In this document: positions 541 through 19,723 of the stretch, one piece after another
Layout of the letters: every line of letters begins with the position of its first letter
Numbering within the stretch: the stretch's first letter is position 1
Source of the DNA: a virus
DNA length: 20,492 nt
IMG/VR virus record: IMGVR_UViG_3300033273_000811
Coordinates: 1 to 20,492 of that record
Direction: 5' to 3' (one strand)
Notes under the pieces: model-generated
Database searches by the model: none
What the model was told of the DNA's origin: nothing
Seen by the model: the letters and a program-made list of their open reading frames with translations, nothing else
Program-made: the position numbers and the translations under genes

Positions 541-767
541 TGGAAAGTATAGAAAAGCACATCGAAGAGGATAAGAAAATCCTCCAAGACCCCACAACAA
601 ATCCACAAATGCGTCGTCACATTGAAGGCGAACTGCATGAACTTGAAGAATACGTAGAGCACCACAAGAAAGAAATCGAAGCTGGAGATCATCATGATCC
701 CAGTTACTTGGAACTTTTCTGTGATCAGAATCCATCTGAACCAGAATGCTTAATTTATGACGATTGA
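540..767 (+). CDS. Small acidic, His-rich protein in the hub cluster (function unknown)
   Basis: This is a 75-aa protein starting on the ATG that overlaps the previous stop (TAATG) and ending in a stop that overlaps the next start (TGATG). It is therefore almost certainly made together with its two hub-gene neighbours. The N-terminal ~50 residues are highly charged and look helical (EEDKKILQD, EGELHELEEYVEHHKKEIE), possibly a short coiled coil. The C-terminal part is acidic with a His-His-Asp cluster (AGDHHDPSYLELFCDQNP) and two cysteines (about residues 61 and 69). I recognise it only as the kind of small conserved protein cyanophages carry beside gp5. A role as an assembly partner or chaperone of the hub is inferred from position alone. 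Confidence 0.75.
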   Translation: MESIEKHIEEDKKILQDPTTNPQMRRHIEGELHELEEYVEHHKKEIEAGDHHDPSYLELFCDQNPSEPECLIYDD

Positions 768-2533
768 TGGAGTCAAATTCGCTATTTAATCCTGGATTCC
801 TTGGATCTAGTTTCAACTGGTGGATTGGTCAGATTCCTGACGATTCCTACTGGAGGGATAATATTACCCCTACTAAGTTTGAAGGTCCAGATGGAACCAC
901 AGGATGGGGATACAGATATAAAGTAAGAATCCTTGGTTTACATGATCGAGATGAGGAGACAATCCCATCCGATCAGTTGCCATGGGCACAGGTAATGTAT
1001 CCTGTCACTGCTGGTGGTGGACAGGCTGCATCTTTTCAAACTCCTAATATCAGACAGGGCAACTTTGTATTCGGATTCTTCCTTGATGGATCTGATATGC
1101 AGGTCCCTGTCATCATGGGAGTGCTTGGCAATAACGCAAAGACAAACCTCAAAAAAACTGTTACCAACTTTGAGGGTGCAAGCGGATATCAGAAAAATGC
1201 GGTCGAGAAAGCGAGTCCAGTCAAACCACCAGATAGAGATCTTAGCATTGTCCAGGGAGAGCGAGCTGAAGTAGAGGCATCTGATCAGGTTCATCGCGTT
1301 AATGCGGGAGAAGTCATACGAGAAGAACTACTATGTGAGAAGATTCCACTTGCAACTCCTGAGAATGCAGTACAGTCTGCTATGAAGAACATGCAGACTG
1401 AGATAGAGAATCTCACGTCTAAAATCAGTAAGTATTTGAACTCAATCACGAGTTACGCTGATGCTGTTTCTTTCCGTGGACAAAACCCCCAGATCTTGAT
1501 TAAAGATGCGTCCAAGGTGATGGCAAAATATACTAAGCCCATCATGGATCAAATGATGGCACACTCACAGAAGGTGCTAAATGCAGAGTTAACAAAAGTT
1601 GTATCTGCACTACCTTCGAGTGAGAGATATCTTTTTTCAGAGATGAAGGAAGAGATGAATGAAATGGCTCTTTGTCTCTACAATAAACTTACCAACAATC
1701 TATCAAATAAAATCGAAGGACTTCTCCTTGATGCACTGGATATTGATAATCTGATCGCTCAAGCAAGAGGAAATAGATCTGATGGAAAAGAGAATCCTTT
1801 TGGAGATGGAAACATACCGAAGACTCCAGATGTTCCGATGTGTGCTGCTGAGCAAATCGTAGCAGATGTCATCATCTCAAACATTGAAGAAATACAGGAA
1901 AACAATGACACTATGATCGAGGGTGTCAATGAATTTTTGAAAGACATTACTGATAAAGTTGCTGGTGTTCTCGGTATTGTTGATCAAATCAGTGACGGTC
2001 TTGGTATTATTGGAGCACTCTCACAACTTGGAAATATTAAAACAAGTATGGCAGCAGCAATGTTGTTTAATAACTTAAGTGTTGAAGTGTTTGGTTGTGA
2101 GTTGAAACCAAACGAGGCGGTGTCAGATGAATACATGCTCTGTAGTGGTGGATCTGGCAAACCTGACTCAAATCTCCCCTCAGAAAAAGCATTGGACGAA
2201 AAAACTGGTAAATCTGATGGCGGTGCGCCCCCAACACCTGATCCTCCAGGATTTGCACAACCAGGACCTGATACAAGGGCAGTGGGTAATGAGACTACGA
2301 CACCTCCATCTGAAGATGTTAAGAATGCGACCACTGTTGATGAAAGTCCAACCGAACAAGGTGGGCAAGGTGGATTACCGCTTGGATCCACGACCATCCG
2401 TGACGGTGGTGCCCGTCAACGAGGAGGAACTGCTGTATCGAATAATGAAAGTAGTGTAAGAAATAGAAGAAGAAGAGGTGCAGGTGTGAGATCGAGAGAT
2501 CCAGTGCCACCAGTTCAGAATGAAGGTGGTTAA
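767..2533 (+). CDS. 5: Baseplate hub/spike protein, gp5-like, OB-fold N-terminus, no lysozyme domain
   Basis: The ATG at 767 overlaps the preceding TGA; the TTG three bases earlier is a less likely start. The product is 588 aa. Residues about 20-130 match the gp5/VgrG-type OB fold: a WGYRYKVRILGLHDRDE strand, LPWAQVMYPV, then GNFVFGFFLDGSDMQVPVIM ending in GVLG. Residues about 195-345 are long amphipathic helices, and 370-450 are a second helical part. From about residue 458 the chain is Gly/Pro/Ser/Thr-rich, probably disordered, and ends with a basic NRRRRGAG cluster. T4 gp5 (575 aa) has OB, lysozyme and triple-stranded beta-helix domains. Neither a lysozyme domain nor octad beta-helix repeats are visible here, so despite similar length the architecture differs. 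It probably sits on the gp27-like hub. Confidence 0.75.
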   Translation: MESNSLFNPGFLGSSFNWWIGQIPDDSYWRDNITPTKFEGPDGTTGWGYRYKVRILGLHDRDEETIPSDQLPWAQVMYPVTAGGGQAASFQTPNIRQGNFVFGFFLDGSDMQVPVIMGVLGNNAKTNLKKTVTNFEGASGYQKNAVEKASPVKPPDRDLSIVQGERAEVEASDQVHRVNAGEVIREELLCEKIPLATPENAVQSAMKNMQTEIENLTSKISKYLNSITSYADAVSFRGQNPQILIKDASKVMAKYTKPIMDQMMAHSQKVLNAELTKVVSALPSSERYLFSEMKEEMNEMALCLYNKLTNNLSNKIEGLLLDALDIDNLIAQARGNRSDGKENPFGDGNIPKTPDVPMCAAEQIVADVIISNIEEIQENNDTMIEGVNEFLKDITDKVAGVLGIVDQISDGLGIIGALSQLGNIKTSMAAAMLFNNLSVEVFGCELKPNEAVSDEYMLCSGGSGKPDSNLPSEKALDEKTGKSDGGAPPTPDPPGFAQPGPDTRAVGNETTTPPSEDVKNATTVDESPTEQGGQGGLPLGSTTIRDGGARQRGGTAVSNNESSVRNRRRRGAGVRSRDPVPPVQNEGG

Positions 2534-2540
2534 TAGGGTC

Positions 2541-2548
2541 AATAAATA
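2541..2548 (+). promoter_or_regulatory. Late promoter motif AATAAATA
   Basis: AATAAATA lies in the only gap (47 bases) between the gp5-like gene and the large gene at 2581, 32 bases before its ATG. It differs by one base from the T4 late promoter TATAAATA that is read by the phage sigma factor gp55. The same motif with A or G in first position recurs at 10666, 18959 and 19722, always shortly ahead of a structural gene. Confidence 0.6.
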
Positions 2549-5500: not shown

Positions 5501-7266
5501 CTACAGTAGACAATGGCGGTAGAATCCTGATTGATGGTGTCGAGGTAGCGAGAGGTGGTCTTGACTTTAGACCTAATGATGGGATCACAGGATTCAGAAA
5601 TGAACCAGGCATCAAAAAGATTTTCATCGAAGAAGGTAAGCATGAGATTACCGTTGAGCTTCTTAATGAAGACACAGAGGGTCGTCAAAAGTTCAAACAA
5701 AAAGTTTTCAGCACTGCAGACTGGGCAGTGCCGCAGACAGTTAGTGAGGGTGAATCAGAACATGAAATCATTTACATTGGTCTTCATCCAAAGAATAAAA
5801 AACTAAATGTCAGTGAAGACCGTAAGACTGTCAGACTCAGAGATGGAGATGGTAATGATACAAACTCAAGACTTGAAATTCTAAGTGGCGATGTTTCATT
5901 CTCAGCAGATGGTAAGAAACTCATAGGAAAGGGTGCTGTCAAGATAAGATTGTCATGGAAAGATGATCCAGGTAATGCTGGTCTTGCTGTAAGGCAAGTA
6001 AGGATTATTGGAGGACCTGGACCTGATAACGTTAGACTCCTAGGATCAAATAGAAACTTTAGTAAAAAAAGGGGACAAGATACAGACACTTTTACTCTGA
6101 CATCAAAACCTATCGTTACAGGAGAAGCAGCACTTACGGGCGGAACAGCAAGGCAAGGTGTAACATATGAGGGACCAGCTCTTGCTTCATATCGAGGTGG
6201 GACTCTAGGTGCTTTCCTTACACCCGCTTTCACGAGCGATGAACAGTATCTTTCTGAGTTCCAGGGAACGACATGGAATATGAAATGGACCGGTGTCAAC
6301 TTTCCAAAAGATGGTGGATACACCATCAGGATCGAAGGAGATGATATTGCTACACTTAGAATTGATGGACAGCAAGTTGCCGAAGCCAGAGTGTTCCAAG
6401 GAGTTAAAGAATTTAATACAAATCTAACTGCTGGAAAGAAAACAGTTGAAATCGAACTCTTTAATCAGGGTGAAGATGTAGGAACCTTTAGTGGAGGAAA
6501 TCCAACAGTCGTCGGTGCTATCATTGATTATAATGGCACACGAGGAACGGGAAAATCAAAATCATGGGATGATAATCCTATCGGAATCTCTGCAGAGTTG
6601 ATTCCACCACCTTGTCCCAGAAATATTGATGGCAAAGGTGTTGTTGATAACATCACAGTCATTGATCCTGGTAATGGATTTACTCCACCACCACCAGGTC
6701 CACCAGATCCAGATTCTGGATCCTTCCCAGTATCTCTTGAGTTGGATTCAGTGACACTCACTGGTAATCCAATCAACTACAACTGTGGAGTTGATCAGAT
6801 TGTGATTGAACCTGCAAATGGTGCTGTTCTTTCATATGAGTGTGATACCTTTGGAAGAATCACTCAGGTCAATGTTGAAAATCCAGGACGAGGATTCCAA
6901 ACACTTCCAAATATTAGAATGATCACTGATACTGGAGCGGGATTTTCCGCAGTTCCAAACTTTAAAGTTGTTGTTGACCCACTTGACGAAGTTGGTCTGC
7001 TTCAAGTCACAGACCTTCCAGGAATCAAACGCACTGGATTTGTCAATGGTCGTCCTTACTATGGTGCTGTCTACATAGAAGGAGGCTTGAAGTTTGCAGG
7101 ATTCTTTGCTACAGTGGGAACACCTGTGCAGGTATATGATACTCTGCAGGAGAGTATTGATGCTGAGGTCACTACACCTCCATCTGCAATCCAGAGACAG
7201 GGTACAGACATTAGAGCAAATGATCCAAGACTTGATATTCCTGATACTCCCGATCAACTTATTTAA
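2581..7266 (+). CDS. Giant virion structural protein with four PA14-like modules
   Basis: This 1561-aa protein is probably a fibre or baseplate-periphery protein. Residues about 95-155 and 1435-1480 carry a strand-turn repeat (GKILSVVVTDGGFGYKYPPK; GRITQVNVENPGRGFQTLPN). In between are four PA14-like beta-sandwich modules, at about 440-530, 741-845, 934-1030 and 1201-1295. Each follows the pattern 'P-x-x-G-x-Y/F ... (A/V/E)-D-(D/N) ... IDG/IDN ... G-x-H/K-x-(I/V)-x-V-x-L-(F/L)-N'. A second unit (SPDGKK ... DDNPRTSGLAV; SADGKK ... DDPGNAGLAV) occurs twice, near 600-640 and 1104-1147, as do PFW(S/T)TR (240, 908) and SWxxNP(M/I)G (873, 1328). PA14 domains often bind carbohydrate, so glycan contact is possible but inferred. 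A Pro-rich linker (PPPPGPPDP, about 1369-1377) follows the last module. No enzyme motif is seen. Confidence 0.8.
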   Translation: MSKPLIRADQLNASVSGTSSFNILEPADDDLIRVGYISTDRGYIKGIGRCEANEIAKKDPGIRFIVQTRDFVKYININQVNELTIDDVAPQEECSGIQLDTDCGPPKVVLSGGGGVGARATPVVGNDGKILSVVVTDGGFGYKYPPKVKVLDKCGIGAGVVAQAFTGTISETTIIYDRESDFEEYEICDPGEDLNSPVFDVSGKEVNKFDVKSYFSKDKDPYRDIILDYQRKLRENERKPFWSTRMNPPLRVIGNGKEDRTKYDVVHYAWGGEQVTVPSSNPKNFEDVQFKIFTSGGHDRGMAFRFASEDGSHKFTIKADDFKENTEIVITKGIKRNTKYFVTSTGRYKGAGVEQGLASKLGKKPKEIKTNGPNKEATGDTIFCDFAKSANDNDDLQVKCTQGTFTASNRDKIKGHDTYQLVYFLGNDKDFKPERQKNVIHDSFMNRYAISPVPPSNVPGSDFAGIQYTFEWEESFPYDGEYKFNAMADNISQVYIDNELVLETKRFKGGPDKFKMFVREGIHKIRVDLFNVPQEREITITEAVETQAASNEIAVIYKGMSKGAGLKTRSNVEVVIDDDIKPSFDENASFRILSSTNNARFSPDGKKIIYDGSGSITIRYKYDDNPRTSGLAVTDIEVGDTTWKREFDRRWDASGKSRFQRSQFEFDPNYDPDNPPSYAKKYREKGRVTKTVNVKGIDAPPPTSGDIQKVTVFDTLSSINKADRKLFRISPEAGKDAAFVNRFGVLPFDITAPESLSDDYAGTHTIRWYDLDFPVDGNYNIEVAVDDNVNLRFVNKNGEETSIEKRGFTAAVEDGGRAIGKSTDAKFFRAGKYTLIAELFQRSGKRLAKGNPMVLAVKIATSFIERTEIVKQSWNENPMGAALTIDAPPVPNLEIPPPKAEGRCPNNPFWTTRFPAKEYWYPVVVPKRWGKFMNRHAISPLPPLASKSTDGGGVVYTTSWDIDVPYRGFFGLRSTVDNGGRILIDGVEVARGGLDFRPNDGITGFRNEPGIKKIFIEEGKHEITVELLNEDTEGRQKFKQKVFSTADWAVPQTVSEGESEHEIIYIGLHPKNKKLNVSEDRKTVRLRDGDGNDTNSRLEILSGDVSFSADGKKLIGKGAVKIRLSWKDDPGNAGLAVRQVRIIGGPGPDNVRLLGSNRNFSKKRGQDTDTFTLTSKPIVTGEAALTGGTARQGVTYEGPALASYRGGTLGAFLTPAFTSDEQYLSEFQGTTWNMKWTGVNFPKDGGYTIRIEGDDIATLRIDGQQVAEARVFQGVKEFNTNLTAGKKTVEIELFNQGEDVGTFSGGNPTVVGAIIDYNGTRGTGKSKSWDDNPIGISAELIPPPCPRNIDGKGVVDNITVIDPGNGFTPPPPGPPDPDSGSFPVSLELDSVTLTGNPINYNCGVDQIVIEPANGAVLSYECDTFGRITQVNVENPGRGFQTLPNIRMITDTGAGFSAVPNFKVVVDPLDEVGLLQVTDLPGIKRTGFVNGRPYYGAVYIEGGLKFAGFFATVGTPVQVYDTLQESIDAEVTTPPSAIQRQGTDIRANDPRLDIPDTPDQLI

Positions 7267-7268
7267 AG

Positions 7269-7910
7269 ATGACAGAACCCAGAAATCAATCTAGCGCCAA
7301 TAATAGGGAGCAAGGAAAATCAAACTACGACGGCACTGTTATTAGCAGCAGCAGACATGCTTGTGTCTCCATGGGTAAAGTCCACAAACCTGGTGATGTA
7401 ACATCTGCGTTTTGTGTTGAGACCGCTGATGGAAAACATAATTTTTTCATGGATGCGGATGGACAAAGAAAAGGATGGACCACAAGCACAAGTCCTGGTG
7501 TTTTTCAAGTTGAGTGTGGTGAACATCCAGATATTGAAGATGTTGATGAAAAAGAGGCTCTTGACAGTTTGGTTTTCATCTGTAAAAATGGTAATACTTT
7601 AATAAGAAATAAGAATGGTAAAATACGATTAGAGGCCACTGATATTGAAATGATCGCCACTGGCGAGGGATCTTCTAAGGGCAACATACGTATAGACGCA
7701 AAAGAAACTGTTGATATTAAATGCAAAAAACTTAACGCTGATGCAAAATCTCTTATAAAATTGACAACACCTGGTGTGGTTGATTTATCAGCAAACGCCT
7801 GTATGAAAATCTATGCCTCAATCATTCGTGGTGTTACTGATGCGGTGAAGGTCAAAGATGGTGATTTTGGTGGCAAAAAAATCCTTGAATCAAATAACAA
7901 AACAGTATAG
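7269..7910 (+). CDS. Beta-helix/spike-like virion protein
   Basis: The ATG is two bases after the previous stop, so it is co-transcribed with the giant PA14 gene. The product is 213 aa. Residues 1-100 contain a possible small beta domain (VSMGKVHKPGDVTSAFCVET, GKHNFFMDADGQRKG). From about 110 on, short strands repeat with G/N/D turns: NGNTLIRNKNGKIRLEATDI, GNIRIDAKETVDIKC, KSLIKLTTPGVVDLSANACM. This pattern resembles the C-terminal beta-helix of gp5/VgrG spikes. Because the gp5-like protein upstream shows no beta-helix, this gene may supply the spike shaft as a separate chain; that link is inference. It could also be a minor tail protein of unrelated role. There is no signal peptide or membrane segment, and no metal-binding HxH tip motif is obvious. 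Confidence 0.65.
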   Translation: MTEPRNQSSANNREQGKSNYDGTVISSSRHACVSMGKVHKPGDVTSAFCVETADGKHNFFMDADGQRKGWTTSTSPGVFQVECGEHPDIEDVDEKEALDSLVFICKNGNTLIRNKNGKIRLEATDIEMIATGEGSSKGNIRIDAKETVDIKCKKLNADAKSLIKLTTPGVVDLSANACMKIYASIIRGVTDAVKVKDGDFGGKKILESNNKTV

Positions 7911-7918
7911 GAGTAAAT

Positions 7919-8773
7919 ATGTCTTTTAATCTTGATGACGTATGTGTTGGTGGTCAACTAAAAGTTGGAACCGGTATCGTCCCCGCCATTAAAGAAGGGG
8001 ATGAGAGAATCAATGGTTCGGTTTATGCTAAAGGACCAGTAGTTTTTGGCGGACCTACAGAGTTTGATCAAAATAGAGCTACCTTAATGGTTGGCAGAAC
8101 TAGAAATAATGATAAAGATTGTGATCCAGCAGATCATTCGCTTTGGTCAAAGGGAAACGTGTATATCCAGGGTGACGATGCGTTTACACAAAATACCCTG
8201 ACTATCAAAAGTGAACTTGACACTGCTATCAATGTCAATAATGTTACAACGATTGATAGTAAGGGTGATGCTATCTTTGCGATCGGCACCAATGGGCAGA
8301 CACTTTCTTCCAGATTTTCTGCAGCAGATGCAAGACCAAAACCATTCGATATCAAACACCCATCAAGAGACGGATATCGTCTTCGCTATGCCTGCGTTGA
8401 GGGACCTGAGGTTGCTGTTTATTATAGAGGTCGCGTAAAGAACGAAAAGGTAATCATTCTTCCAAGTTACTGGAAAGATTTTGTGTATGAAGATAGCATT
8501 TCTGTGCAGTTGCAACCTATTGGTGCTCATCAGGATGTGATTGTAAAAAGATGGGACAGCGAAAAGATCTACCTCCAGTCGAAAGGTGGTATGCCCATCG
8601 ATTGCTTCTTCCATGTTTATGCTGAGAGAAATGACATCAATCCTTTGATCACTGAATATGAAGGTGAGTCGTGTCAGGACTATCCTGATCCTAATCACCA
8701 TCAAATCCCTGAGAGTGATAGAAACTACAAAGATCCCAACTACGCGAGAGAGCAGAACACAAGAACTAAGTGA
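7919..8773 (+). CDS. Tail-fibre-type structural protein with conserved CVEGPE C-terminal domain
   Basis: A clear ribosome site, AGGAG at 7909-7913, lies five bases before the ATG. The 284-aa protein begins with short repetitive strands (VCVGGQLKVGTGIV, INGSVYAKGPVVFGG) typical of fibre shafts. Residues 141-175 hold a block I recognise from many marine phage fibre-type proteins: KPFDIKHP, then RLRYACVEGPEVAVYYRGRV, followed by ILPSYWKDFVYEDSISVQL and IGAHQDV. The tail (250-284) is polar and rich in D, N, P and H. The block resembles the region just before chaperone-type fibre ends, but I see no Ser-Lys S74 dyad, so I do not call a self-cleaving domain. The stop overlaps the GTG start of the oxygenase gene by four bases. 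Confidence 0.7.
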   Translation: MSFNLDDVCVGGQLKVGTGIVPAIKEGDERINGSVYAKGPVVFGGPTEFDQNRATLMVGRTRNNDKDCDPADHSLWSKGNVYIQGDDAFTQNTLTIKSELDTAINVNNVTTIDSKGDAIFAIGTNGQTLSSRFSAADARPKPFDIKHPSRDGYRLRYACVEGPEVAVYYRGRVKNEKVIILPSYWKDFVYEDSISVQLQPIGAHQDVIVKRWDSEKIYLQSKGGMPIDCFFHVYAERNDINPLITEYEGESCQDYPDPNHHQIPESDRNYKDPNYAREQNTRTK

Positions 8774-9315
8774 GAAAACTAATCTTCGTTGAAGACAATT
8801 TTATTAGCGAAGAAGATTGTCAAAGATATATCAAACTATCAAAAGAAAACCAAAATCCGATACCCTATGGTGATGTAAGTCGTGGTGGTGACACCTATCT
8901 TACGACTGTAGAATGGGAAAACCAGGGTGCTCGGTATCTTGGTGGTGATGTTGACAGTGTTGTTCCATCCGAGGACTCTGTTATTGCAAGGGTTAATGAA
9001 CTGTGTAAGTCATTTGATAGTGAGATAGAACTTGATTATGTGGGTGTGGTTCGTTGGCCTGTTGGGACATTTATGAAACCACATGTGGATGACAACAATA
9101 TTCACAACCCTGATGTTTTCGCTGCGATGCTTTACCTTAATGATGACTTTGAAGGTGGTCACACCTTGTTTGAACAGTATGATATCAAACCAGAGGTGGG
9201 TAAACTCATCGTGTTTTCCAACTCTCAACTCCTACACTATGTCAGCAAGGTGGAGGGCAGTGAAAGATTTGTCCTATCATTCTGGTATAAGAGGTTGACA
9301 CCCCCCACTGATTGA
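8770..9315 (+). CDS. 2-oxoglutarate/Fe(II)-dependent oxygenase (prolyl 4-hydroxylase-like)
   Basis: The start is GTG at 8770, overlapping the fibre gene stop as GTGA, which implies translational coupling. The 181-aa product has the complete catalytic set of the superfamily. The iron ligands are H105 and D107 (MKPHVDDNN) and H156 (NSQLLHYVSKV), and R166 (GSERFVLSFWYKR) is the 2-oxoglutarate anchor. The double-stranded beta-helix core is visible in AAMLYLNDDFEGGHTLFEQ and KPEVGKLIVFSNS. Such enzymes oxidise a substrate while converting 2-oxoglutarate to succinate and CO2; the compact form resembles prolyl/lysyl hydroxylases. They are frequent in cyanophage genomes but their substrates are unknown. 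Its place behind fibre genes suggests a virion protein as target, which is inference. Its 3' end contains the -35 box of the next promoter. Confidence 0.88.
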   Translation: MRKLIFVEDNFISEEDCQRYIKLSKENQNPIPYGDVSRGGDTYLTTVEWENQGARYLGGDVDSVVPSEDSVIARVNELCKSFDSEIELDYVGVVRWPVGTFMKPHVDDNNIHNPDVFAAMLYLNDDFEGGHTLFEQYDIKPEVGKLIVFSNSQLLHYVSKVEGSERFVLSFWYKRLTPPTD

Positions 9316-9323
9316 CCTAAAAT
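9295..9323 (+). promoter_or_regulatory. Sigma70-type (early) promoter, TTGACA-17-TAAAAT
   Basis: A perfect -35 box TTGACA (9295-9300) is followed by exactly 17 bases and TAAAAT (9318-9323, 5 of 6 to consensus). It overlaps the end and stop codon of the oxygenase gene. Transcription would start near 9330, just ahead of the small gene at 9347. Early genes of T4-like phages use host sigma70-type promoters, so this would give the downstream island its own early expression. Confidence 0.65.
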
Positions 9324-9346
9324 AAGCAGGTAATCAAACAAACCCC

Positions 9347-9529
9347 ATGCAAGACGAGTATCTCACCCGCTGTGTCGTTGACCCCGTGAGTCGCAAGTTC
9401 TTCCTCTATTCCAATGAGGGTGATGAGCGTGTTGTTGACTGCGAAACCGTGGATCAGTTCATGGCAGTGCTTGAGTTGGTGCGTGACAAGTGTGAAGAGG
9501 ATGTGCTGGCATACAAAAACCCCCTCTGA
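9347..9529 (+). CDS. Small conserved cyanophage-type protein, unknown function
   Basis: This is a 60-aa acidic protein, first gene after the 9295-9323 promoter. Its sequence, with TRCVVDPVSRKFFLYSNEGD followed by a helix VDQFMAVLELVRDKCEE, looks like a compact beta-beta-beta-alpha fold. I recall close relatives as unnamed proteins of T4-like cyanophages, but cannot confirm this here. There are two cysteines near residues 31 and 49 and no catalytic motif. The Shine-Dalgarno match is weak. Codon use is richer in GC than the downstream small genes. A role in early host takeover would fit the promoter but is only inferred. Confidence 0.7.
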   Translation: MQDEYLTRCVVDPVSRKFFLYSNEGDERVVDCETVDQFMAVLELVRDKCEEDVLAYKNPL

Positions 9530-9556
9530 GCAAAAATGACTTTTAATTCCAAAAAA

Positions 9557-9584
9557 GGCGGAAAAAAAATCCCGCCAAATTTTT
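9557..9584 (+). terminator. Weak hairpin with T-run, possible partial terminator
   Basis: GGCGG (9557-9561) pairs with CCGCC (9572-9576) across a 10-base A-rich loop, and a TTTTT run (9580-9584) follows after AAA. The upstream A-run could extend the stem past a bulge. The T-run is displaced by three bases from the stem, so termination would be partial at best. It lies between the 9347 and 9627 genes and could lower downstream transcription. Confidence 0.3.
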
Positions 9585-9626
9585 ACCCTGAGGGGTTTTA
9601 CGAAGAAATCATCAAATGCTACGAGT

Positions 9627-9779
9627 ATGAGACCCGAAACCCGACAATCTATGGAAATGTTATTCGCAGCGAAGTGGAACTTACCCAAAGCAGCGAAGAA
9701 TGCAGGTCTGACCAATAAGGAGATGAAAATCACCTTTAATGAATATTGTACGTTTCATCCCCCGACATACAATGGATGA
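9627..9779 (+). CDS. 50-aa small protein, probable conserved phage protein
   Basis: This short gene is hidden between longer competing frames. It starts at ATG 9627 and encodes MRPETRQSMEMLFAAKWNLP, continues KAAKNAGLTNKEMKITFNEY and ends CTFHPPTYNG. The composition (amphipathic helix, KAAKxxGLTxKEM turn, Pro/Tyr end) is protein-like and resembles the helix-turn-helix spacing of small DNA-binding proteins. That resemblance is weak and I do not claim DNA binding. I have an impression of similar small proteins in cyanophages. The ribosome site is poor; an alternative in-frame ATG is at 9651. It overlaps the start of the next gene, by 8 bases if that gene starts at 9772. Confidence 0.6.
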   Translation: MRPETRQSMEMLFAAKWNLPKAAKNAGLTNKEMKITFNEYCTFHPPTYNG

Positions 9780-10047
9780 TCTGAGGATTTATTGTCAGAA
9801 TGAACAAGATCAACTCAATGTTGTATCCTTCTTAGAGGAGAATTTTCCAGATGTCAAAGTCTGCACTTGGGATCCAGATCCTGTAGATACTGGATCCTGG
9901 GGAATGTTCGTTGATGAGTTTGAACCTGATTTATGGTCAAAACTTGTACAACACCTTGAAAGTGAAGATTGTTGGGTTTATGAAGATATGATAGAATTGT
10001 ATCTTGAGACTGATGACGGTATTAAAGAATATACGTCTGACTTTTAG
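9772..10047 (+). CDS. Small acidic protein, unknown function
   Basis: I prefer ATG 9772 (91 aa, beginning MDDLRIYCQNEQDQLNVVSF). The upstream in-frame ATG at 9739 would add 11 residues encoded on top of the 9627 gene in another frame. The protein is strongly acidic and Trp-rich (VCTWDPDP, TGSWGMFVDEF, DLWSKLVQHL, EDCWVYEDM). It appears to alternate beta strands and helices, and no family motif is recognised. The TAG stop shares its last base with the first base of the tRNA gene, so the mRNA and tRNA are packed without any gap and tRNA processing would cut the message exactly at its stop codon. Function is unknown; expression probably follows the early promoter at 9295. Confidence 0.65.
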   Translation: MDDLRIYCQNEQDQLNVVSFLEENFPDVKVCTWDPDPVDTGSWGMFVDEFEPDLWSKLVQHLESEDCWVYEDMIELYLETDDGIKEYTSDF

Positions 10048-10130
10048 GGAGCGTGGCGGAATCGGTAGACGCACCAGACTTAAAATCTGTTAACCTTGTG
10101 GTTGTGGGGGTTCAAGTCCCCCCGCTCCTA
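10047..10130 (+). tRNA. tRNA-Leu (anticodon UAA)
   Basis: All arms fold. Acceptor GGGAGCG (10047-10053) pairs with CGCTCCT (10123-10129), with a G-U first pair. The D arm is GCG/CGC, and the anticodon loop CTTAAAA (10079-10085) carries TAA at 10081-10083. A class II variable arm AACC-TTGT-GGTT is present, and the T arm GGGGG/CCCCC encloses TTCAAGT. The discriminator is A (10130), as expected for leucine; CCA is not encoded. The first anticodon-stem pair is a C-U mismatch. Unlike the usual cyanobacterial tRNA-Leu(UAA) gene, it has no group I intron. It would serve UUA (and UUG) codons, which are frequent in the gene just downstream. Confidence 0.93.
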
Positions 10131-10132
10131 TC

Positions 10133-10139
10133 CTAAATA
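10133..10139 (+). promoter_or_regulatory. Possible late promoter motif CTAAATA
   Basis: CTAAATA lies three bases after the tRNA and 22 bases before the ATG at 10162. It matches the core of the T4-like late element (TAAATA) but lacks the ATAAATA form seen at the other four sites. It could allow late transcription of the two following small genes. Confidence 0.35.
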
Positions 10140-10161
10140 CAGTGGGGTACGCTATAGACCC

Positions 10162-10431
10162 ATGAAATATCAAATACAGACAAAGTATTGTTGGTATGAC
10201 AACAAGAAACAAATTGTCTTGATGTATTTGATACAAGGAGTTCCGTTCACTTTTGATGATTTACCAGAATACGCAATCCACGACCCAGAAATCATTGAGT
10301 TAGCCAATAACACAAAGTGTTGGAACGTTGAAGAATTGTATCGAGCATCAATGTATCTAATGGCAGAAGAATGCCATCCTATGTGTTTTGAGTTAGAATT
10401 AGAAAACCCTGAGTTATTACCTGTTGACTAA
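10162..10431 (+). CDS. Small acidic protein, unknown function, AT-rich with TTA-biased leucine codons
   Basis: The frame is open back into the tRNA, but the first sensible start is ATG 10162, giving 89 aa (MKYQIQTKYCWYDNKKQIVL onward). The N-terminus looks like a small beta sheet, followed by helices (DPEIIELAN, NVEELYRASMYLMAEECHP) and an acidic C-terminus (FELELENPELLPVD). Of ten leucines, six are TTA, three TTG and one CTA, whereas the neighbouring structural genes use many CTT, CTG and CTC. This fits the adjacent tRNA-Leu(UAA) and suggests a different origin from the structural genes. Its stop overlaps the next possible start (TAATG). No domain is recognised. Confidence 0.7.
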   Translation: MKYQIQTKYCWYDNKKQIVLMYLIQGVPFTFDDLPEYAIHDPEIIELANNTKCWNVEELYRASMYLMAEECHPMCFELELENPELLPVD

Positions 10432-10601
10432 TGATCATCAACCTGTGGTATAATCAAGTAATGAAAGAGTGGCGTTGGTCACTTACAGAAACAGGAGTAA
10501 TGACCCAGCATTCTGGTGGTCAAGAAGAACTCCGTGATGCTATGAATGATGTTGCAAATACAGTCGAATATATACTTGACAATGAACTAAAAGACGGGTA
10601 A
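10431..10601 (+). CDS. Short protein, unknown function (start uncertain: 10431, 10461 or 10500)
   Basis: An open frame of 56 codons runs from ATG 10431, which overlaps the previous stop (TAATG), to TAA 10601. The internal ATG at 10461 begins MKEWRWSLTETGVMTQHSGG and continues QEELRDAMNDVANTVEYILD; it sits right behind a TGGTATAAT promoter element and may be the real start. A third ATG at 10500 has AGGAG two bases upstream, which is too close to be convincing. From 10461 the product is 46 aa: two or three beta strands then one amphipathic helix, acidic. Its 3' part contains the -35 box of another promoter. I cannot assign a function. Confidence 0.5.
   Translation: MIINLWYNQVMKEWRWSLTETGVMTQHSGGQEELRDAMNDVANTVEYILDNELKDG
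10446..10454 (+). promoter_or_regulatory. Extended -10 promoter TGGTATAAT
   Basis: TGG followed by a perfect TATAAT (10449-10454) is a consensus extended -10 element, which can work without a good -35 box. A TTGACT at 10424-10429 is present but at 19 bases, longer than ideal. Transcription would start near 10461, which is the A of an in-frame ATG. Confidence 0.5.
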
Positions 10602-10604
10602 TAT
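10576..10604 (+). promoter_or_regulatory. Sigma70-like promoter TTGACA-17-TAATAT
   Basis: A perfect TTGACA (10576-10581) is followed by exactly 17 bases and TAATAT (10599-10604, 4 of 6 to consensus). The predicted start is near 10611. The only thing downstream before a strong terminator is about 50 bases with no gene. Confidence 0.4.
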
Positions 10605-10610
10605 ATAAGT

Positions 10611-10660
10611 GTGTGAAGGAAGTCGCTAAAGGGTAACCGCTTTGTCGGTTGCCCTTTTTT
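10611..10660 (+). ncRNA. Candidate ~50-nt small RNA between promoter and terminator
   Basis: The stretch from the predicted start of the 10576-10604 promoter to the terminator holds no open frame of note. The RNA would have about 20 single-stranded bases (with GAAGGAAG, purine-rich) followed by the terminator hairpin. That layout is typical of small regulatory RNAs, but it could equally be a terminator leader or a non-functional promoter match. It is a prediction from promoter and terminator spacing only. Confidence 0.25.
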
Positions 10661-10663
10661 CTT
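10631..10663 (+). terminator. Strong intrinsic terminator closing the small-gene island
   Basis: GGGTAACCG (10631-10639) pairs with CGGTTGCCC (10646-10654): nine pairs, one of them U-G, around a six-base loop CTTTGT, followed directly by TTTTTT (10655-10660) and CTT. It separates the early-type island from the late promoter at 10666. Confidence 0.9.
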
Positions 10664-10665
10664 AT

Positions 10666-10673
10666 GATAAATA
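10666..10673 (+). promoter_or_regulatory. Late promoter motif GATAAATA
   Basis: GATAAATA comes three bases after the terminator T-run and 29 bases before the ATG of the 1966-aa structural gene. It is one base from the T4 late consensus TATAAATA and identical to the site at 18959. It would restart transcription after the terminator late in infection. Confidence 0.65.
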
Positions 10674-10702: not shown

Positions 10703-13700
10703 ATGGGTCTCTCCAGATTAGATAATTTTCTGAAATCGTCGCGTGGTACTATTCTTTATGTCAATCCTAACGACCTAGATGCAACTGATAGTATTGAAAA
10801 CCAGGGCAATTCGCTGACTCGTCCGTTTAAGACGATCCAGCGTGCATTGCTTGAAGCTGCAAGGTTTTCGTACCAAAGAGGACTGAATAACGATAGATTC
10901 GCTAAGACAACGATTCAGGTTTATCCTGGAGATCATGTCATTGATAACAGACCTGGTTTCATACCAGATGGAACGAACAACTATAGATTACGAAACGGAA
11001 CGACATCCGATAATCTACCAGCATTTGACCTGAGCACTAATCTTGATCTGGCGTCCGCAGATAACAATCTCTTTAAACTCAATAGTATTCATGGTGGTGT
11101 AATCATCCCCAGAGGAACCTCACTGGTTGGTGTTGATGTTCGTAAGACCAAGATTCGTCCGAAATATATCCCAAGTCCAACAAATAGCAATATTGAGAGA
11201 TCTGCAATCTTCCGTGTCACTGGAGGTTGCTACTTTGGTCAGTTTAGTATCTTTGATGCAGATCCAAATGGTGTTTGCTTCACAGATTATACGACAAACA
11301 CATCTGTTCCAAACTTCTCACACCATAAACTGACAGTTTTTGAATATGCTGACGGTACAAACAACGTCAGCATTAATGATGCTTTCCAGACCTTCACTGC
11401 AGACAGAACTGACCTGCAGATGTATTATGAAAAAGTCAGTTTGGTATATGGTCAGTCATCAGGTCGCTCTATTGAACCTGATTATCCATCCACTTCACTT
11501 GATATTGAACCTAAGATTGACGAATTCCGTATTGTTGGTTCAACTGGTGAGTCTGTAGGCATCTCAAGTATCAAAGCAGGCGATGGCACCACATCAACCA
11601 CCAGTATCACCGTAACTACTACAACTGCAGTTCCTGGTCTGGATGTTGACACTCCATTCCGTATCTCAGGTATCACTGCATCTGGATATAATGGTCAACA
11701 TGTCGTTAATGAAAAACTGAGCAGCACTCAGATCCTGTATAAGGTTCAGACTGCACCTGATACTGCATTGCCATCTGCAACTGGTGCAACGATTGCACTT
11801 GTATCCGATACTGTTACATCTGCATCACCTTATATTTTCAACTGCTCATTGCGTTCTGTCTACGGTATGTGCGGTATGCACGCTGATGGATCAAAGGCAG
11901 ACGGATTTAAGTCTATGGTTGTGGCACAATACACTGGTATTGGTCTGCAGAAAGATGACAATGCATTCCTTAAGTACAACTCAACCACTGGTGTATGGGA
12001 TGACAACACCGTTGCTGGTAATGAAGCGATCAGCACCGATTCAAGAGCAGTTTACAAACCAGATTATGAAAACTTCCATATTAAGGTAAGTAATAAAGCC
12101 GTCATTCAGGCAGTTTCTATCTTTGCGATTGGATATGCTGAGCAGTTCTTAGCAGAAAGTGGTGCAGATATTGCAATCACAAACTCTAACTCCAACTTCG
12201 GTGCAAGAGCACTGGTTGCAAAAGGATTTAGAAATGATGCGTTTGCACAAGATGATGTTGGATATATCACTCATATCATCCCTCCTAAAGAAGTTCCTCT
12301 GACTGAGACTGCGATTGAGTTCCAGTCAATCGATGTTAATAAGACACAAGCACTGACTGGTGTTGGTTCTACCGGACATTTGTTCCTGTTCAACCAGACA
12401 AATGCTGATGTCAAACCCGAGACAGTCGTCCAAGGATATCGCATCGGTGCAAGAACTAATGATACTCTGAGAGTTCTTGTTTCCTATGGTTCGAGCACAA
12501 CTGAGTATACTGCTCGTATCACAATGCCCGACTCAGAACTGAGTGGGGAGAAAACTTTTGATGTTAATCGAAGTGTAACAGGCATTAATAGTATTGGTTC
12601 ATATAGTGATGGTGGCAATGCGAATGTCGTCACCTTATCAGCAGCTCACAGTTTCCTGAACGGGGAATCTGTTCGTGTACTGAGTGATGATGGTCACCTC
12701 CCTGACGGATTGACTCCTAATACCGTATATTTTGCTATTACGGAAGGAACTGGTATTTCCACAAATACTAATATTAAGATCGCAAAGACTCTGACTGACG
12801 CTCAGAACAACAATCCTGTCTCCATTAATGAGAAAGGTGGTGTACTGAAAGTTGTATCTAGAGTATCTGATAAAGTCGCTGGTGATCTTGGACATCCTGT
12901 TCAGTATGACAGCACTAATGGTCAGTGGTACATTAATGTATCAACCGCATCTACAGAAAACAATATCTATTCAACTATTGTTGGTCTCGGATCAACAGGA
13001 TTGGGATCTGCAACTCCTAGAACGTTTGTCAATAGAAAGTCTGACAGAAGAAACGCTAACGATACATTGTATCGTGCAAGATATGTTATCCCATCATCTG
13101 CTGGTGGCGCAGTAGCAAGACCACCAACTGATGGATTCATCATCCAAGAATCAAACACTGGTATTGGTGCAACTGATGCTGAGATTCAAACTTACTTTGG
13201 TAGTGGATCAATCACCAATGTAAACCAGCAAAGAAACTTTAGATTTATTGCTGATGCAACTTGGGATGGCACGAATGCTCTGATTACAACTGAACTGCCA
13301 CACAACTTGACTGATGGTGCTCAGGTTGAACTGGTCAATATTAAGAGTGCTAACAACACAACTGGAACTGCTAACACTGGTTTCAACAGAACTTATGATG
13401 TCATCGGAATCAGTAGTGCAACTCAGTTTATTGTTGGACTAGCAACTGATCCTGGATCATTCTCTAGTGATACATCTTCAAGAACCACATCTCTTCCATA
13501 CTTTAAGAAGAAGAGACTGAACAATACATTCTATGTTTACAACCACTCTGAGGTTCAACCATATATTGCTGGTGAGCAGGATGGCATTTATTATGTCACG
13601 ATGCTCAACTCCACTAACTCTCCTACTATCTCTCCATTTACTGCTGAGAAGTTCTCTCAACCAGTCAAAGAGTTGTTCCCACAGACAAGCAGAGATAATC

Positions 13701-16603
13701 CAGTTGGTGATCCTCCAGCATCCAAGTGTTTTGCTTCTCCATCACTGATTGGTGATGTTGTCATCAACGATGTAAGAAACAGTGTCACTAGAGAGAGTGT
13801 TGATAAGTATTTCCGCGACACTGATGTTGGTGTAGGTATCACTAATATTGTTTCATCTGGAACTGCACATACGATTACATCTGTTATTGATCATGGACTT
13901 AATCGTGTGACATCACTGTCAATCGTCAGTGGTGGTGCTGGATATGGATCTGGTGCAGCTGGTGATCTCTATAATGCTAAACTGGTTGCCATCGGTTCAT
14001 CCACAACTGGTAAGCACGCCACTGCTAAGATTACATTTAACTCTAGCGGAACTATCACTGCTGTCAAAGTAATGAACGGCGGTGCTGCTTATGGTGTTGG
14101 TAATACCATGGCAGTTGTGGGTGTCGCTACTACATCTGGATATTCTCAAGCAGTTGTTCAGGTATCAAACATCTACGACAACGTAGGAGACTCAATCCGT
14201 GTGCTTGGTGTTTCTTCTGCATCACTTCAGAATTATAACGACCTTTATCGTATTACTGGTGTTGAAATCGGTGCTGCAACATCAGTTACTGTGGCTGCGG
14301 CAAGCACGATTGTTGGTCTGTCTGAAGCAGGCATAGGTTTCACTGATACTCAGAATGCTTACTTCTATCTGACTGGTGAAGCACTACGTATTTCAGCATT
14401 GGATTACACCAGCAGCGGTGGTATTGCAACAGTCACAACTTCAAACCGTCACGGACTGAAAGTCAACAGTAAGGTTAGATTTACTGGTGCGGATCAAGCA
14501 CTTTACAATGGCGACTTCATTGTTAAAGAGAACCTCAGTCTGACTTCATTCTCAGTCAATGTTGGAACTGGAACCACAGCACCAACGATGTCTGGCACGA
14601 TGTTTGGATATCGTGAGGGTTATTCATCTACAGACGGTTCTTTGACCATTGATGATGAAAGCCTGAACGGAAGAATGGTTCCTTCTTATGCAGGTATTAC
14701 TACAACTCTTGCTGCTAACGTTGATAATGCAACCACTGCAAATGTCAGTTTGACTGACCTTTCAACACTGGATGTCAACATCGGTGATTATCTGATGGTT
14801 GATGATGAACTTGTTCGTGTTAAGACTACAACTACAGGTTCTAACCCAATCTCTGTGTTCCGTGGTGTTCTCGGAACAAAGGCAACAGCACACGATATTA
14901 ACTCTGTCGTTAGAAGAGTTAGAGTTGATCCCGTTGAATTGAGAAGACACTCAATCAACAGGGCATCTGGACATACATTTGAGTATGTTGGATTTGGTCC
15001 TGGTAACTACTCAACTGCTCTGCCACAGAAACAGAATCGTGCGATCTCTGGTAAAGAAGAGATTCTGTCACAGTCCACCAAGCAAGATGGTGGTGTGAAC
15101 TTCTTCACTGGAATGAACGATAAGGGTATTTCGTTCTCTGGCAACAGAAAACTCAGCACTTTGACTGGTGTTGAAGAAATCTTTGATACCCCAGTTCGCA
15201 CTGTGACTGGTGAGGACATTGGTAATGACTCTTCCATCAATATTGTTAGCCCACTAGAGGGTAGATTCTCTCGTTCCATCATTGTTGAGGGTGGATCTGA
15301 TAATAAGGCAACTTCCGAGTTCAATGGTCCTGTAATCTTTAATGAGAAGGTTACCTCACTCTCAACTAAGGGTGTTGAGATGGACTCGCTCTTCCTGCAG
15401 GGCGGTGCTACAGTTTCGCGTAAGTATACCGTTGGATTTGCTACTCCAACACAAGCAGGAAACTACGGAGATATTGTTTTCCAAGGTAGACCCACTAAGG
15501 GTGGTAACTCTGGTTGGATCTATACCACTGATAATGATTGGTATCGCTTCGGCACAATCAGTCTTTCACTGCTAGATCAAGGTCTGGTTGGTCTCTATGA
15601 TGGTGTTGGTATTGGAACCACATCACCTAATCCAGAGGGTGGCACCAAGAGAAAACTTCTGGTTGGTTCTGGCACCACACAATTCTCCGTTGATGATATT
15701 GGCGTTGGTATCGGAACCACCGCAAATGAGTACAAACTCCACATCATTGGTAACCAGAATGTTGTGGGATATGTCACAGCATCTTACTTCATAGGTGATG
15801 GTTCTGGTATTACAAACATCAACGCATCTAACACTGGTTGGACACAAATCACTGGTGGCATCTATGATACAGCACTTGGTGTCGTTGGTGTTGGTACATC
15901 AGTTCCTAAGTACAACCTTGAGGTTGGTTTGGTTGGAATGGGTTCAACCGCATTCCAAGTCAATGGAGACTCTAGATTCATTGGTCTAACGACTGCTGCT
16001 AACGTATTTGTTGGTGGTGCTCTGACCGCACTTGGTTCTTACAACATTGAGAATGTTTCTTCGGGTGTCATTCGCGCATCTTCTGTTGGCATCGGAACCA
16101 CAAATCCAGTACAATCATTCCAGGTTGGAAGCGGAACTACAACTCTGCTTACGGTCACTGGTATTGGTTCGGTCGGTATCGGAACCACATCACCAACCGT
16201 TGATCTACAGGTTGATGGACACTCACAGTTCAAGACTTACTCTGAAACTGTCGGTGTTGCTACCGTTGTATCTGGTGTTGTTACGATTGACTTGTCTAAC
16301 GCACAATCGTTCATCTGTACCGCAACCAGTGCGATCACGCAGTTCACTGTATCCAATCCACCATCCGGTTCTTCTTCGTTCACTATCAGACTGACACAAG
16401 GAAGTTCCGCAGTCGCGGTTGGTATTGATACATTCAAGACATCTGGTGGTGCTGATATTCCAGTTTACTGGCCAGGTGGACTCGCGCCGATAGTTACGCC
16501 GACAGCAGACGCGACAGACATCTACTCATTCAAAACATTTGATGGTGACAACCTATCATCAGTCGGTCTGTATGGCGTCGTTGGAGGTCAGAACTTCTCA
16601 TGA
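10703..16603 (+). CDS. Giant virion structural protein, pectin-lyase-like N-terminus and fibre-like C-terminus
   Basis: This 1966-aa protein starts MGLSRLDNFLKSSRGTILYV, a start I associate with a large structural protein of T4-like cyanophages. Residues about 14-60 contain NSLTRPFKTIQRALLEAARF and then TIQVYPGDHVI, the opening of parallel beta-helix (pectin-lyase-like) folds. The helix probably runs to about 260 (GGVIIPRGTSLVGVDVRKTK). Many Ser/Thr/Gly beta repeats follow, with a G-G-x-x-Y unit near 1075-1140. From about 1633 VGIGTTSP-type shaft motifs recur four times. The C-terminus (DIYSFKTFDGDN ... YGVVGGQNFS) matches a common fibre end. A role as a long fibre or host-contact protein fits; no enzymatic residues are identified. 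The stop overlaps the next start (ATGA). Confidence 0.8.
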   Translation: MGLSRLDNFLKSSRGTILYVNPNDLDATDSIENQGNSLTRPFKTIQRALLEAARFSYQRGLNNDRFAKTTIQVYPGDHVIDNRPGFIPDGTNNYRLRNGTTSDNLPAFDLSTNLDLASADNNLFKLNSIHGGVIIPRGTSLVGVDVRKTKIRPKYIPSPTNSNIERSAIFRVTGGCYFGQFSIFDADPNGVCFTDYTTNTSVPNFSHHKLTVFEYADGTNNVSINDAFQTFTADRTDLQMYYEKVSLVYGQSSGRSIEPDYPSTSLDIEPKIDEFRIVGSTGESVGISSIKAGDGTTSTTSITVTTTTAVPGLDVDTPFRISGITASGYNGQHVVNEKLSSTQILYKVQTAPDTALPSATGATIALVSDTVTSASPYIFNCSLRSVYGMCGMHADGSKADGFKSMVVAQYTGIGLQKDDNAFLKYNSTTGVWDDNTVAGNEAISTDSRAVYKPDYENFHIKVSNKAVIQAVSIFAIGYAEQFLAESGADIAITNSNSNFGARALVAKGFRNDAFAQDDVGYITHIIPPKEVPLTETAIEFQSIDVNKTQALTGVGSTGHLFLFNQTNADVKPETVVQGYRIGARTNDTLRVLVSYGSSTTEYTARITMPDSELSGEKTFDVNRSVTGINSIGSYSDGGNANVVTLSAAHSFLNGESVRVLSDDGHLPDGLTPNTVYFAITEGTGISTNTNIKIAKTLTDAQNNNPVSINEKGGVLKVVSRVSDKVAGDLGHPVQYDSTNGQWYINVSTASTENNIYSTIVGLGSTGLGSATPRTFVNRKSDRRNANDTLYRARYVIPSSAGGAVARPPTDGFIIQESNTGIGATDAEIQTYFGSGSITNVNQQRNFRFIADATWDGTNALITTELPHNLTDGAQVELVNIKSANNTTGTANTGFNRTYDVIGISSATQFIVGLATDPGSFSSDTSSRTTSLPYFKKKRLNNTFYVYNHSEVQPYIAGEQDGIYYVTMLNSTNSPTISPFTAEKFSQPVKELFPQTSRDNPVGDPPASKCFASPSLIGDVVINDVRNSVTRESVDKYFRDTDVGVGITNIVSSGTAHTITSVIDHGLNRVTSLSIVSGGAGYGSGAAGDLYNAKLVAIGSSTTGKHATAKITFNSSGTITAVKVMNGGAAYGVGNTMAVVGVATTSGYSQAVVQVSNIYDNVGDSIRVLGVSSASLQNYNDLYRITGVEIGAATSVTVAAASTIVGLSEAGIGFTDTQNAYFYLTGEALRISALDYTSSGGIATVTTSNRHGLKVNSKVRFTGADQALYNGDFIVKENLSLTSFSVNVGTGTTAPTMSGTMFGYREGYSSTDGSLTIDDESLNGRMVPSYAGITTTLAANVDNATTANVSLTDLSTLDVNIGDYLMVDDELVRVKTTTTGSNPISVFRGVLGTKATAHDINSVVRRVRVDPVELRRHSINRASGHTFEYVGFGPGNYSTALPQKQNRAISGKEEILSQSTKQDGGVNFFTGMNDKGISFSGNRKLSTLTGVEEIFDTPVRTVTGEDIGNDSSINIVSPLEGRFSRSIIVEGGSDNKATSEFNGPVIFNEKVTSLSTKGVEMDSLFLQGGATVSRKYTVGFATPTQAGNYGDIVFQGRPTKGGNSGWIYTTDNDWYRFGTISLSLLDQGLVGLYDGVGIGTTSPNPEGGTKRKLLVGSGTTQFSVDDIGVGIGTTANEYKLHIIGNQNVVGYVTASYFIGDGSGITNINASNTGWTQITGGIYDTALGVVGVGTSVPKYNLEVGLVGMGSTAFQVNGDSRFIGLTTAANVFVGGALTALGSYNIENVSSGVIRASSVGIGTTNPVQSFQVGSGTTTLLTVTGIGSVGIGTTSPTVDLQVDGHSQFKTYSETVGVATVVSGVVTIDLSNAQSFICTATSAITQFTVSNPPSGSSSFTIRLTQGSSAVAVGIDTFKTSGGADIPVYWPGGLAPIVTPTADATDIYSFKTFDGDNLSSVGLYGVVGGQNFS

Positions 16604-18997: not shown

Positions 18998-19723
18998 ATG
19001 GCTGTCAATAAGAATTTTGTAGTCAAAAATGGTTTAGAGGTCAACACTAACCTCTTACTCGCTGATGCTGATAACAGTCGAGTTGGTGTTGGCACATCTG
19101 TACCTTCATTTACCCTCCATGTTTTTGGTGGCATTGGCGTAACTGATGTCAGTGTCACAGGTGTTACTACATTATCAAGCGATCTTAAGGTTGGATCAGG
19201 CGGAACTGGATTTGTTGTCACAACAGATTCAGCAACTGGTGCTGGTCAATCTGTTGGTATCAGAACTGGTTTCCCCGAATATACTTTAGATGTCCGTGGT
19301 CCTGTTAGTACAGGCACCACGGCATTGTATGTTTATGGTGATACCAGAATCACAGGTGACCTATTTGTTGATGATATCACATTTGATGATGCAACGATGC
19401 AGGACCTTACGGTCACTGATACATTAACAGTTGCAGGTGTAACCACTCTTGCAAGTGGTGGTGGTATATCCACTGTTGGTGGTCAACTTTATGTTGCAAG
19501 TGACATCAATGCTATTGGTGTTATTACAGCAACATCATTTATTGGTCTTGGTCAAATTGGTGTCGCATCTGAAGGCACCTTTGTTGGAACTGGTGTTACC
19601 TTAGTTGACTTTAAAACAACAACCGGAACTAACATCAACTCAGTTGATATATCTTCTGGTATTGCATCAGTAACTATCCAACCAGGTGTTTCACTTGGAC
19701 TCGCAATCGCTCTCGGCGGTTAA
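18998..19723 (+). CDS. Tail-fibre-type structural protein
   Basis: This 241-aa protein begins MAVNKNFVVKNGLEVNTNLL, an opening typical of small cyanophage fibre-type proteins. It carries fibre shaft units of the form VG(V/I)xTxxPxxxLxV: VGVGTSVPSFTLHVFG and VGIRTGFPEYTLDVRG. Short strand repeats follow (DTRITGDLFVDDITFDD; GGQLYVASDINAIGVITATS). The same unit occurs in the C-terminus of the 1966-aa protein, so the two may form similar trimeric beta-structured rods. There is no recognisable receptor-binding tip or chaperone domain; the C-terminus (VTIQPGVSLGLAIALGG) is short and hydrophobic. A strong purine-rich ribosome site precedes it, and its own late promoter motif lies upstream. Confidence 0.7.
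   Translation: MAVNKNFVVKNGLEVNTNLLLADADNSRVGVGTSVPSFTLHVFGGIGVTDVSVTGVTTLSSDLKVGSGGTGFVVTTDSATGAGQSVGIRTGFPEYTLDVRGPVSTGTTALYVYGDTRITGDLFVDDITFDDATMQDLTVTDTLTVAGVTTLASGGGISTVGGQLYVASDINAIGVITATSFIGLGQIGVASEGTFVGTGVTLVDFKTTTGTNINSVDISSGIASVTIQPGVSLGLAIALGG

Follow-up and report, generated by a model that had tools for sequence, protein, structure and literature searches.

The window, a contig of 20,492 bases from a T4-like marine cyanophage (IMG/VR virus record IMGVR_UViG_3300033273_000811, positions 1 to 20,492), carries an island of small genes between a gp5-hub operon and the gene for a tail fibre of 1966 amino acids (aa). The island, which begins at the -35 box of a sigma70-type promoter and ends with a late-promoter motif (9295-10673), contains five small genes with matches in PHROG, one overlapping open reading frame (ORF) and a tRNA-Leu(UAA) gene, in agreement with the five small genes and tRNA reported by an earlier sequence-only reading. 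This island belongs to the known cyanophage hot-spot 'near gp5 with tRNAs', and it most probably constitutes a transcription unit for pre-late expression, embedded in the late structural module.

In the phage collection, the closest relatives of the window were the Synechococcus phages S-SM2, Bellamy and SynMITS9220M01. For comparison, 80 IMG/VR relatives were retrieved with the N-terminus of the tail fibre, and the first small gene of the island (phrog_662) was then located in them; promoters were counted over 56 non-redundant loci and late motifs over 47. Promoters were scored as the number of matches out of 12 hexamer bases, with a threshold of at least 10/12 for the loci of relatives. In the relatives examined, the island occupied a single, fixed genome position. 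When Syn9 gp21 was used as the scan query, only four loci were recovered.

Promoter and start element of the island

The near-consensus sigma70 promoter that had been proposed to open the island was well supported by the relatives. A promoter scoring at least 10/12 was present upstream of the first small gene in 53 of the 56 loci, with a 17-nucleotide (nt) spacer in 51, whereas the same score was reached in 2.1% of random windows and, at each of six control genes, in 0 to 3 of the loci. Among relatives, both hexamers and an element in the start region, GGTAANCAA, were conserved despite divergence of the spacer bases. The promoter is convincing because of this conservation and not because of the scan of the window, in which it was the top scorer among 40 promoter-like sites, a total not above chance (shuffle mean of 46.6). 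It overlaps the final codons of the preceding oxygenase-type ORF.

phrog_662 was also observed without a sigma70 promoter, in L080, L082, L087 (upstream of 4691) and L090, which is P-SSM2 (upstream of 6294). Loci of the L080 type exhibited a CTAAATA motif upstream of phrog_662 instead, and the gene might there have been switched to late control. In islands of the Syn9 type, an inverted repeat was observed inside the promoter spacer (ACACCCT-GGAC-AGGGTGT in L091, 18628-18656; ACACCGC-CCCA-GCGGTGT in L100, at about 2950), which is possibly an operator. A palindromic operator in the spacer was rejected as a general feature, since in the best test mirrored columns paired at 0.27, versus 0.23 after column shuffling.

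Terminator, late motif and left side of the island

The strong intrinsic terminator assigned to the right end was also borne out, with 12 pairs, a folding energy of -17.9 kcal/mol and z = -5.8. Its stem covaries: in an alignment of 22 sequences, 7 of the 17 predicted pairs were changed on both sides with pairing kept. Terminators, belonging to two main sequence families, were found in most islands longer than 1 kb. The late motif was likewise found just after the T-run, at a distance of five bases and not three as first read, and it preceded the fibre gene in all 47 non-redundant relatives (2.5% expected by chance), mostly 36-40 nt ahead of the start codon. Within the window, four ATAAATA sites were observed, all on the plus strand and each 26-38 nt ahead of a structural ORF.

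The left side was less clearly bounded. From the late promoter at 2542 up to position 9295, the terminator scan gave no credible terminator, and late read-through from the left into the island would therefore be expected; the island RNA is probably produced in the late phase as well as before it. Moreover, the oxygenase-type gene adjoining the promoter on the left was replaced or missing in most relatives, the stretch upstream of the promoter varying with a gap of 2-2480 nt, so that the variable zone reaches beyond the island. The layout described as self-contained thus has its own promoter and its own terminator, but lacks a credible terminator on the left, next to a variable upstream gene.

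Three observations weigh against an insulated pre-late unit: the missing left terminator; the absence of a terminator, by scan, in 17 short islands and several longer ones; and the absence of the promoter at P-SSM2, L039 and L080-type loci. The insulated layout is thus common, not universal. Were the island simply part of the late operon, with inert promoter-like and terminator-like sites, its location on the same strand as the late genes, the missing left terminator and the chance-level count of promoter-like sites would all be accounted for. We consider this very improbable, as hexamers and start element have been conserved, unlike the spacer, promoters are absent at control genes of the same loci and changes in the terminator stem are compensated.

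Gene gain and loss among relatives

The distance from the first small gene to the start of the fibre gene ranged from 310 to 3742 nt among relatives, and tRNA content differed between islands, with up to five tRNAs. The order of promoter, phrog_662, phrog_1308, tRNA-Leu, phrog_4134 and phrog_2818 was kept in most islands. Gaps larger than 250 nt were found mainly after phrog_2818 (19 of 55 distinct islands), and also after phrog_1308 (7 of 48) and phrog_4134 (5 of 53). One locus, L010, was nearly identical to the window and lacked exactly one gene, phrog_14216, between phrog_1308 and the tRNA; this gene was present in only three of the loci compared.

Among ten cargo proteins of larger islands that were scanned, five were DNA-modification proteins of the Mom family; the other cargo included a NUMOD3-motif protein, an HNH-type protein, a 2-oxoglutarate (2OG) oxygenase and an S74 peptidase domain. 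The Mom-family genes (Pfam PF25680, E 1e-20 or better) were located between phrog_2818 and the tail fibre gene (L020, 4261-4914; L031, 2931-3572; L055, 4286-4897; L072, 4291-4899; L075, 4285-4905).

Because the core order is kept and extra DNA is confined to particular slots, the island is a conserved mini-operon with insertion slots, neither a free cassette nor a block that swaps. The proposal that contents swap between fixed borders thus holds in that contents vary between fixed signals, but the whole content is not exchanged. We take homologous recombination between co-infecting phages as the default route of entry into the slots. A mobile cassette moving as one block, for example by tRNA-directed site-specific recombination or homing endonucleases, would agree with the tRNA in the island, with the HNH and NUMOD3-motif genes of some islands and with the co-occurrence of tRNAs and non-syntenic regions noted by Sullivan et al. 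2010 (PMC3037559). We regard such a cassette as improbable, since additions lie in separate slots of an otherwise ordered core, a single gene is present or absent in L010, no endonuclease or integrase is encoded in the island of the window, and the genomic position is fixed in the relatives examined.

Small genes and other features of the window

The coordinates of the features are collected in Table 1.

Table 1. Features of the island and its surroundings in the window.
Feature	Position	Strand	Evidence or remark
gp5-type baseplate hub/lysozyme	764..2533	+	phrog_33098, 4.7e-151; 39% identical to S-SM2 hub
Late-promoter motif ATAAATA, upstream of structural genes 2581-9315	2542..2548	+	motif match
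2OG-Fe(II) oxygenase-type gene, just left of promoter	8770..9315	+	varies among relatives
Sigma70-type promoter TTGACA-N17-TAAAAT	9295..9323	+	11/12, 17-nt spacer; expected start near 9330
Start-region element GGTAANCAA, here GGTAATCAA	9329..9337	+	about where RNA should begin; 1.1-1.5 bits in most columns, 48 promoters
phrog_662 / DUF7294, 60 aa, first island gene	9347..9529	+	PHROG match
ORF overlapping phrog_1308 in other frame	9536..9718	+	no PHROG match
Conserved stretch between phrog_662 and phrog_1308: GACTTTTAATTCCA, then G-rich/A8/C-rich tract	9538..9590	+	position conserved in most relatives
phrog_1308, 50 aa, predicted three-helix, helix-turn-helix (HTH)-like	9627..9779	+	PHROG match, structure prediction
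phrog_14216, 91 aa, accessory gene	9772..10047	+	PHROG match; start 9772 fits better than 9739
tRNA-Leu(UAA)	10047..10130	+	Rfam tRNA, 58 bits
phrog_4134, 89 aa	10162..10431	+	PHROG match
phrog_2818, 56 aa	10431..10601	+	PHROG match
Intrinsic terminator, 12-bp stem	10628..10657	+	T-run to 10660; -17.9 kcal/mol, z = -5.8
Late-promoter motif GATAAATA for tail fibre gene	10666..10673	+	starts five bases after T-run
Tail fibre (phrog_529), right border	10703..16603	+	PHROG match

The first gene product, phrog_662, was predicted to adopt a beta-beta-beta-alpha fold, for which the fold search gave no significant match. The model of phrog_1308 contained three helices (mean predicted local distance difference test, pLDDT, of 83), and its top fold matches were mostly HTH or homeodomain DNA-binding domains, none of them significant (best E 0.5); 2 of its 28 members weakly matched the Fis-type HTH_8 domain (E 0.09). 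Neither protein had significant relatives among solved structures, by sequence or by fold. phrog_1308 is widespread, being found by tblastn in 329 phage records. Against PADLOC, phrog_14216 gave only a weak match (E 0.006), which was not used. Any role given here to the island's small proteins is one that we infer.

The ORF at 9536-9718 was rejected as a separate conserved gene, as its start codon is absent in most relatives, although part of the frame looks coding. The upstream frame of the overlap (9536-9779) keeps a LYKEILECYDYE-like peptide in relatives even though the start codon changes, and the overlapping frames are possibly translationally coupled. A conserved RNA fold after phrog_662 was also rejected: RNAalifold gave none in 25 sequences and the hairpin of the window was no better than shuffles. 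A CTAAATA sequence just 3' of the tRNA gene (10133-10139) was a single match, fewer than expected by chance, and was not counted as a promoter.

Counterparts in Syn9 and other named phages

The first island genes of S-SM1 and Syn19 (GC341), of S-SM2 (GC29) and of Syn9 (gp21, E 6.9e-32) all belong to phrog_662, although the T4-GC annotation numbers separate GC341 from GC29. In Syn9, gp21 follows gp5 and lies under a perfect TTGACA-17-TATAAT promoter (12/12) with the GGTAANCAA element, and the unit therefore spans at least two cyanophage lineages. The Syn9 island (gp21-gp31; NC_008296, 18.6-21.1 kb) resembles that of the window in its first gene, in its promoter, here with GGTAACCAA, in the presence of tRNAs, in its position directly after gp5 and in the late motif ahead of the next structural gene. 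Unlike the window, it encodes a Phd-like antitoxin, as its second gene, and other genes; it has a second 12/12 promoter at 19075, and its right end is without a clear terminator.

The -10 hexamer and GGTAANCAA element were also observed elsewhere in Syn9, upstream of cobS (with a weak -35), of gp203, which adjoins tRNA-Arg, and of psbA. The coordinates of the element in Syn9 are L091 18651, L093 30405 and L094 12105 and 15837 (Syn9 130405, 162105 and 165837). The psbA gene showed an island-like promoter-plus-leader layout (TTGACA-17-TATGAT and GGTAAACAA). A dedicated phage regulatory element, common to the gp5-adjacent island and, in Syn9, to psbA, a tRNA-linked gene and perhaps cobS, and recognised by some factor of phage or host origin (perhaps the island's own HTH-like phrog_1308), would make the island a gene docking site as well as a regulatory hub, an idea that we hold to be speculative and rather unlikely.

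Expected timing of expression

In S-SM2, 29 coding-strand promoter sites scored at least 11/12, versus 2-5 in shuffles, and these strong sites were concentrated in small-gene and replication regions. Of the four strong sites within its structural blocks (at about 5-42 and 61-105 kb), two fell inside large ORFs and the other two, the island promoter and a site at 36829, were the only ones to precede a gene start. Since host-type promoters are rare in structural blocks and late genes use the gp55-type NATAAATA motif (PMC2984593), pre-late expression of the island is supported.

In place of the early expression first proposed, the promoter sequences point to a timing that would be pre-late, a term that covers both early and middle expression, which sequence does not separate. 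Host-like promoters are reportedly present at Syn9 middle genes. That the same unit belongs to the middle rather than the early class, its host-like promoter and GGTAANCAA acting with psbA and the replication genes after a separate early phase, seems to us somewhat the better guess: the psbA promoter of Syn9 is of the same kind, and the metabolic genes of P-HM2 fall exclusively in the middle cluster (PMC5082946), although in S-PM2 and Syn9 the homologues of early genes of T4 have been reported to be preceded by sigma70-like motifs (PMC2984593).

Relation to known variable regions

Synechococcus-enriched genes are grouped into four hot-spots by Sullivan et al. 2010, who list 'near gp5 with tRNAs' as the first of them and note that tRNAs co-occur with non-syntenic regions (PMC3037559). 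The window shares with this first hot-spot the position, the gp5 hub, here four genes ahead of the island, the tRNA gene and the small genes of variable content; moreover, S-SM2, which carries an island of the same type, is among the genomes of that study. In its available part, the hot-spot account describes no conserved promoter or start element, common first gene or slot structure. In the literature searched, which covered Weigele 2007, Millard 2009 and Doron 2016 incompletely, no description was found of the slot structure, of a first gene common to lineages or of the family-wide promoter with the GGTAANCAA element (also at Syn9 psbA). We do not claim that the promoter and start element, the common first gene or the slot structure are unpublished.

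A plastic region that splits the baseplate module in some cyanomyophages has been described (PMC7029224). The hyperplastic region between g15 and g18 (Millard et al. 2009, as described in PMC2984593) resembles the island in having variable genes inside a structural module, but it is located elsewhere in the genome: S-SM2 has gp15-gp18 at about 88-98 kb, compared with 21.5-23 kb for the island. Assignment of the island to the g15-g18 region was rejected, since it lies between the gp5-side genes and the tail fibre. Flexible genes in the hyperplastic regions that Nolan et al. 2006 (cited in PMC3037559) described for T4-like phages mostly keep early or middle promoter control, as here; unlike in those regions, the island has a conserved promoter and first gene, and its cargo changes only in part.

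Proposed organisation and its significance

In the organisation that we propose, host RNA polymerase with a housekeeping sigma factor would start at the conserved promoter, ahead of gp55-dependent late transcription. From this promoter, phrog_662, phrog_1308, the tRNA and the remaining small genes would be transcribed into a single RNA. That RNA would end at the terminator, short of the tail fibre gene, whose transcription would restart late from the neighbouring late promoter. As promoter and terminator would insulate the fibre gene, small genes could be gained and lost at several slots with the late genes undisturbed.

The island cleanly illustrates a gene-turnover hot-spot whose outline was already known, and provides the molecular frame of this known site in cyanophages. 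With its conserved signals for start and stop, a lytic phage would be able to gain or lose small genes for host takeover, DNA modification or tRNAs amid its tail genes without breaking them. In addition, since the island promoter element also precedes psbA of Syn9, a link to how photosynthesis genes are controlled during infection can be tested.

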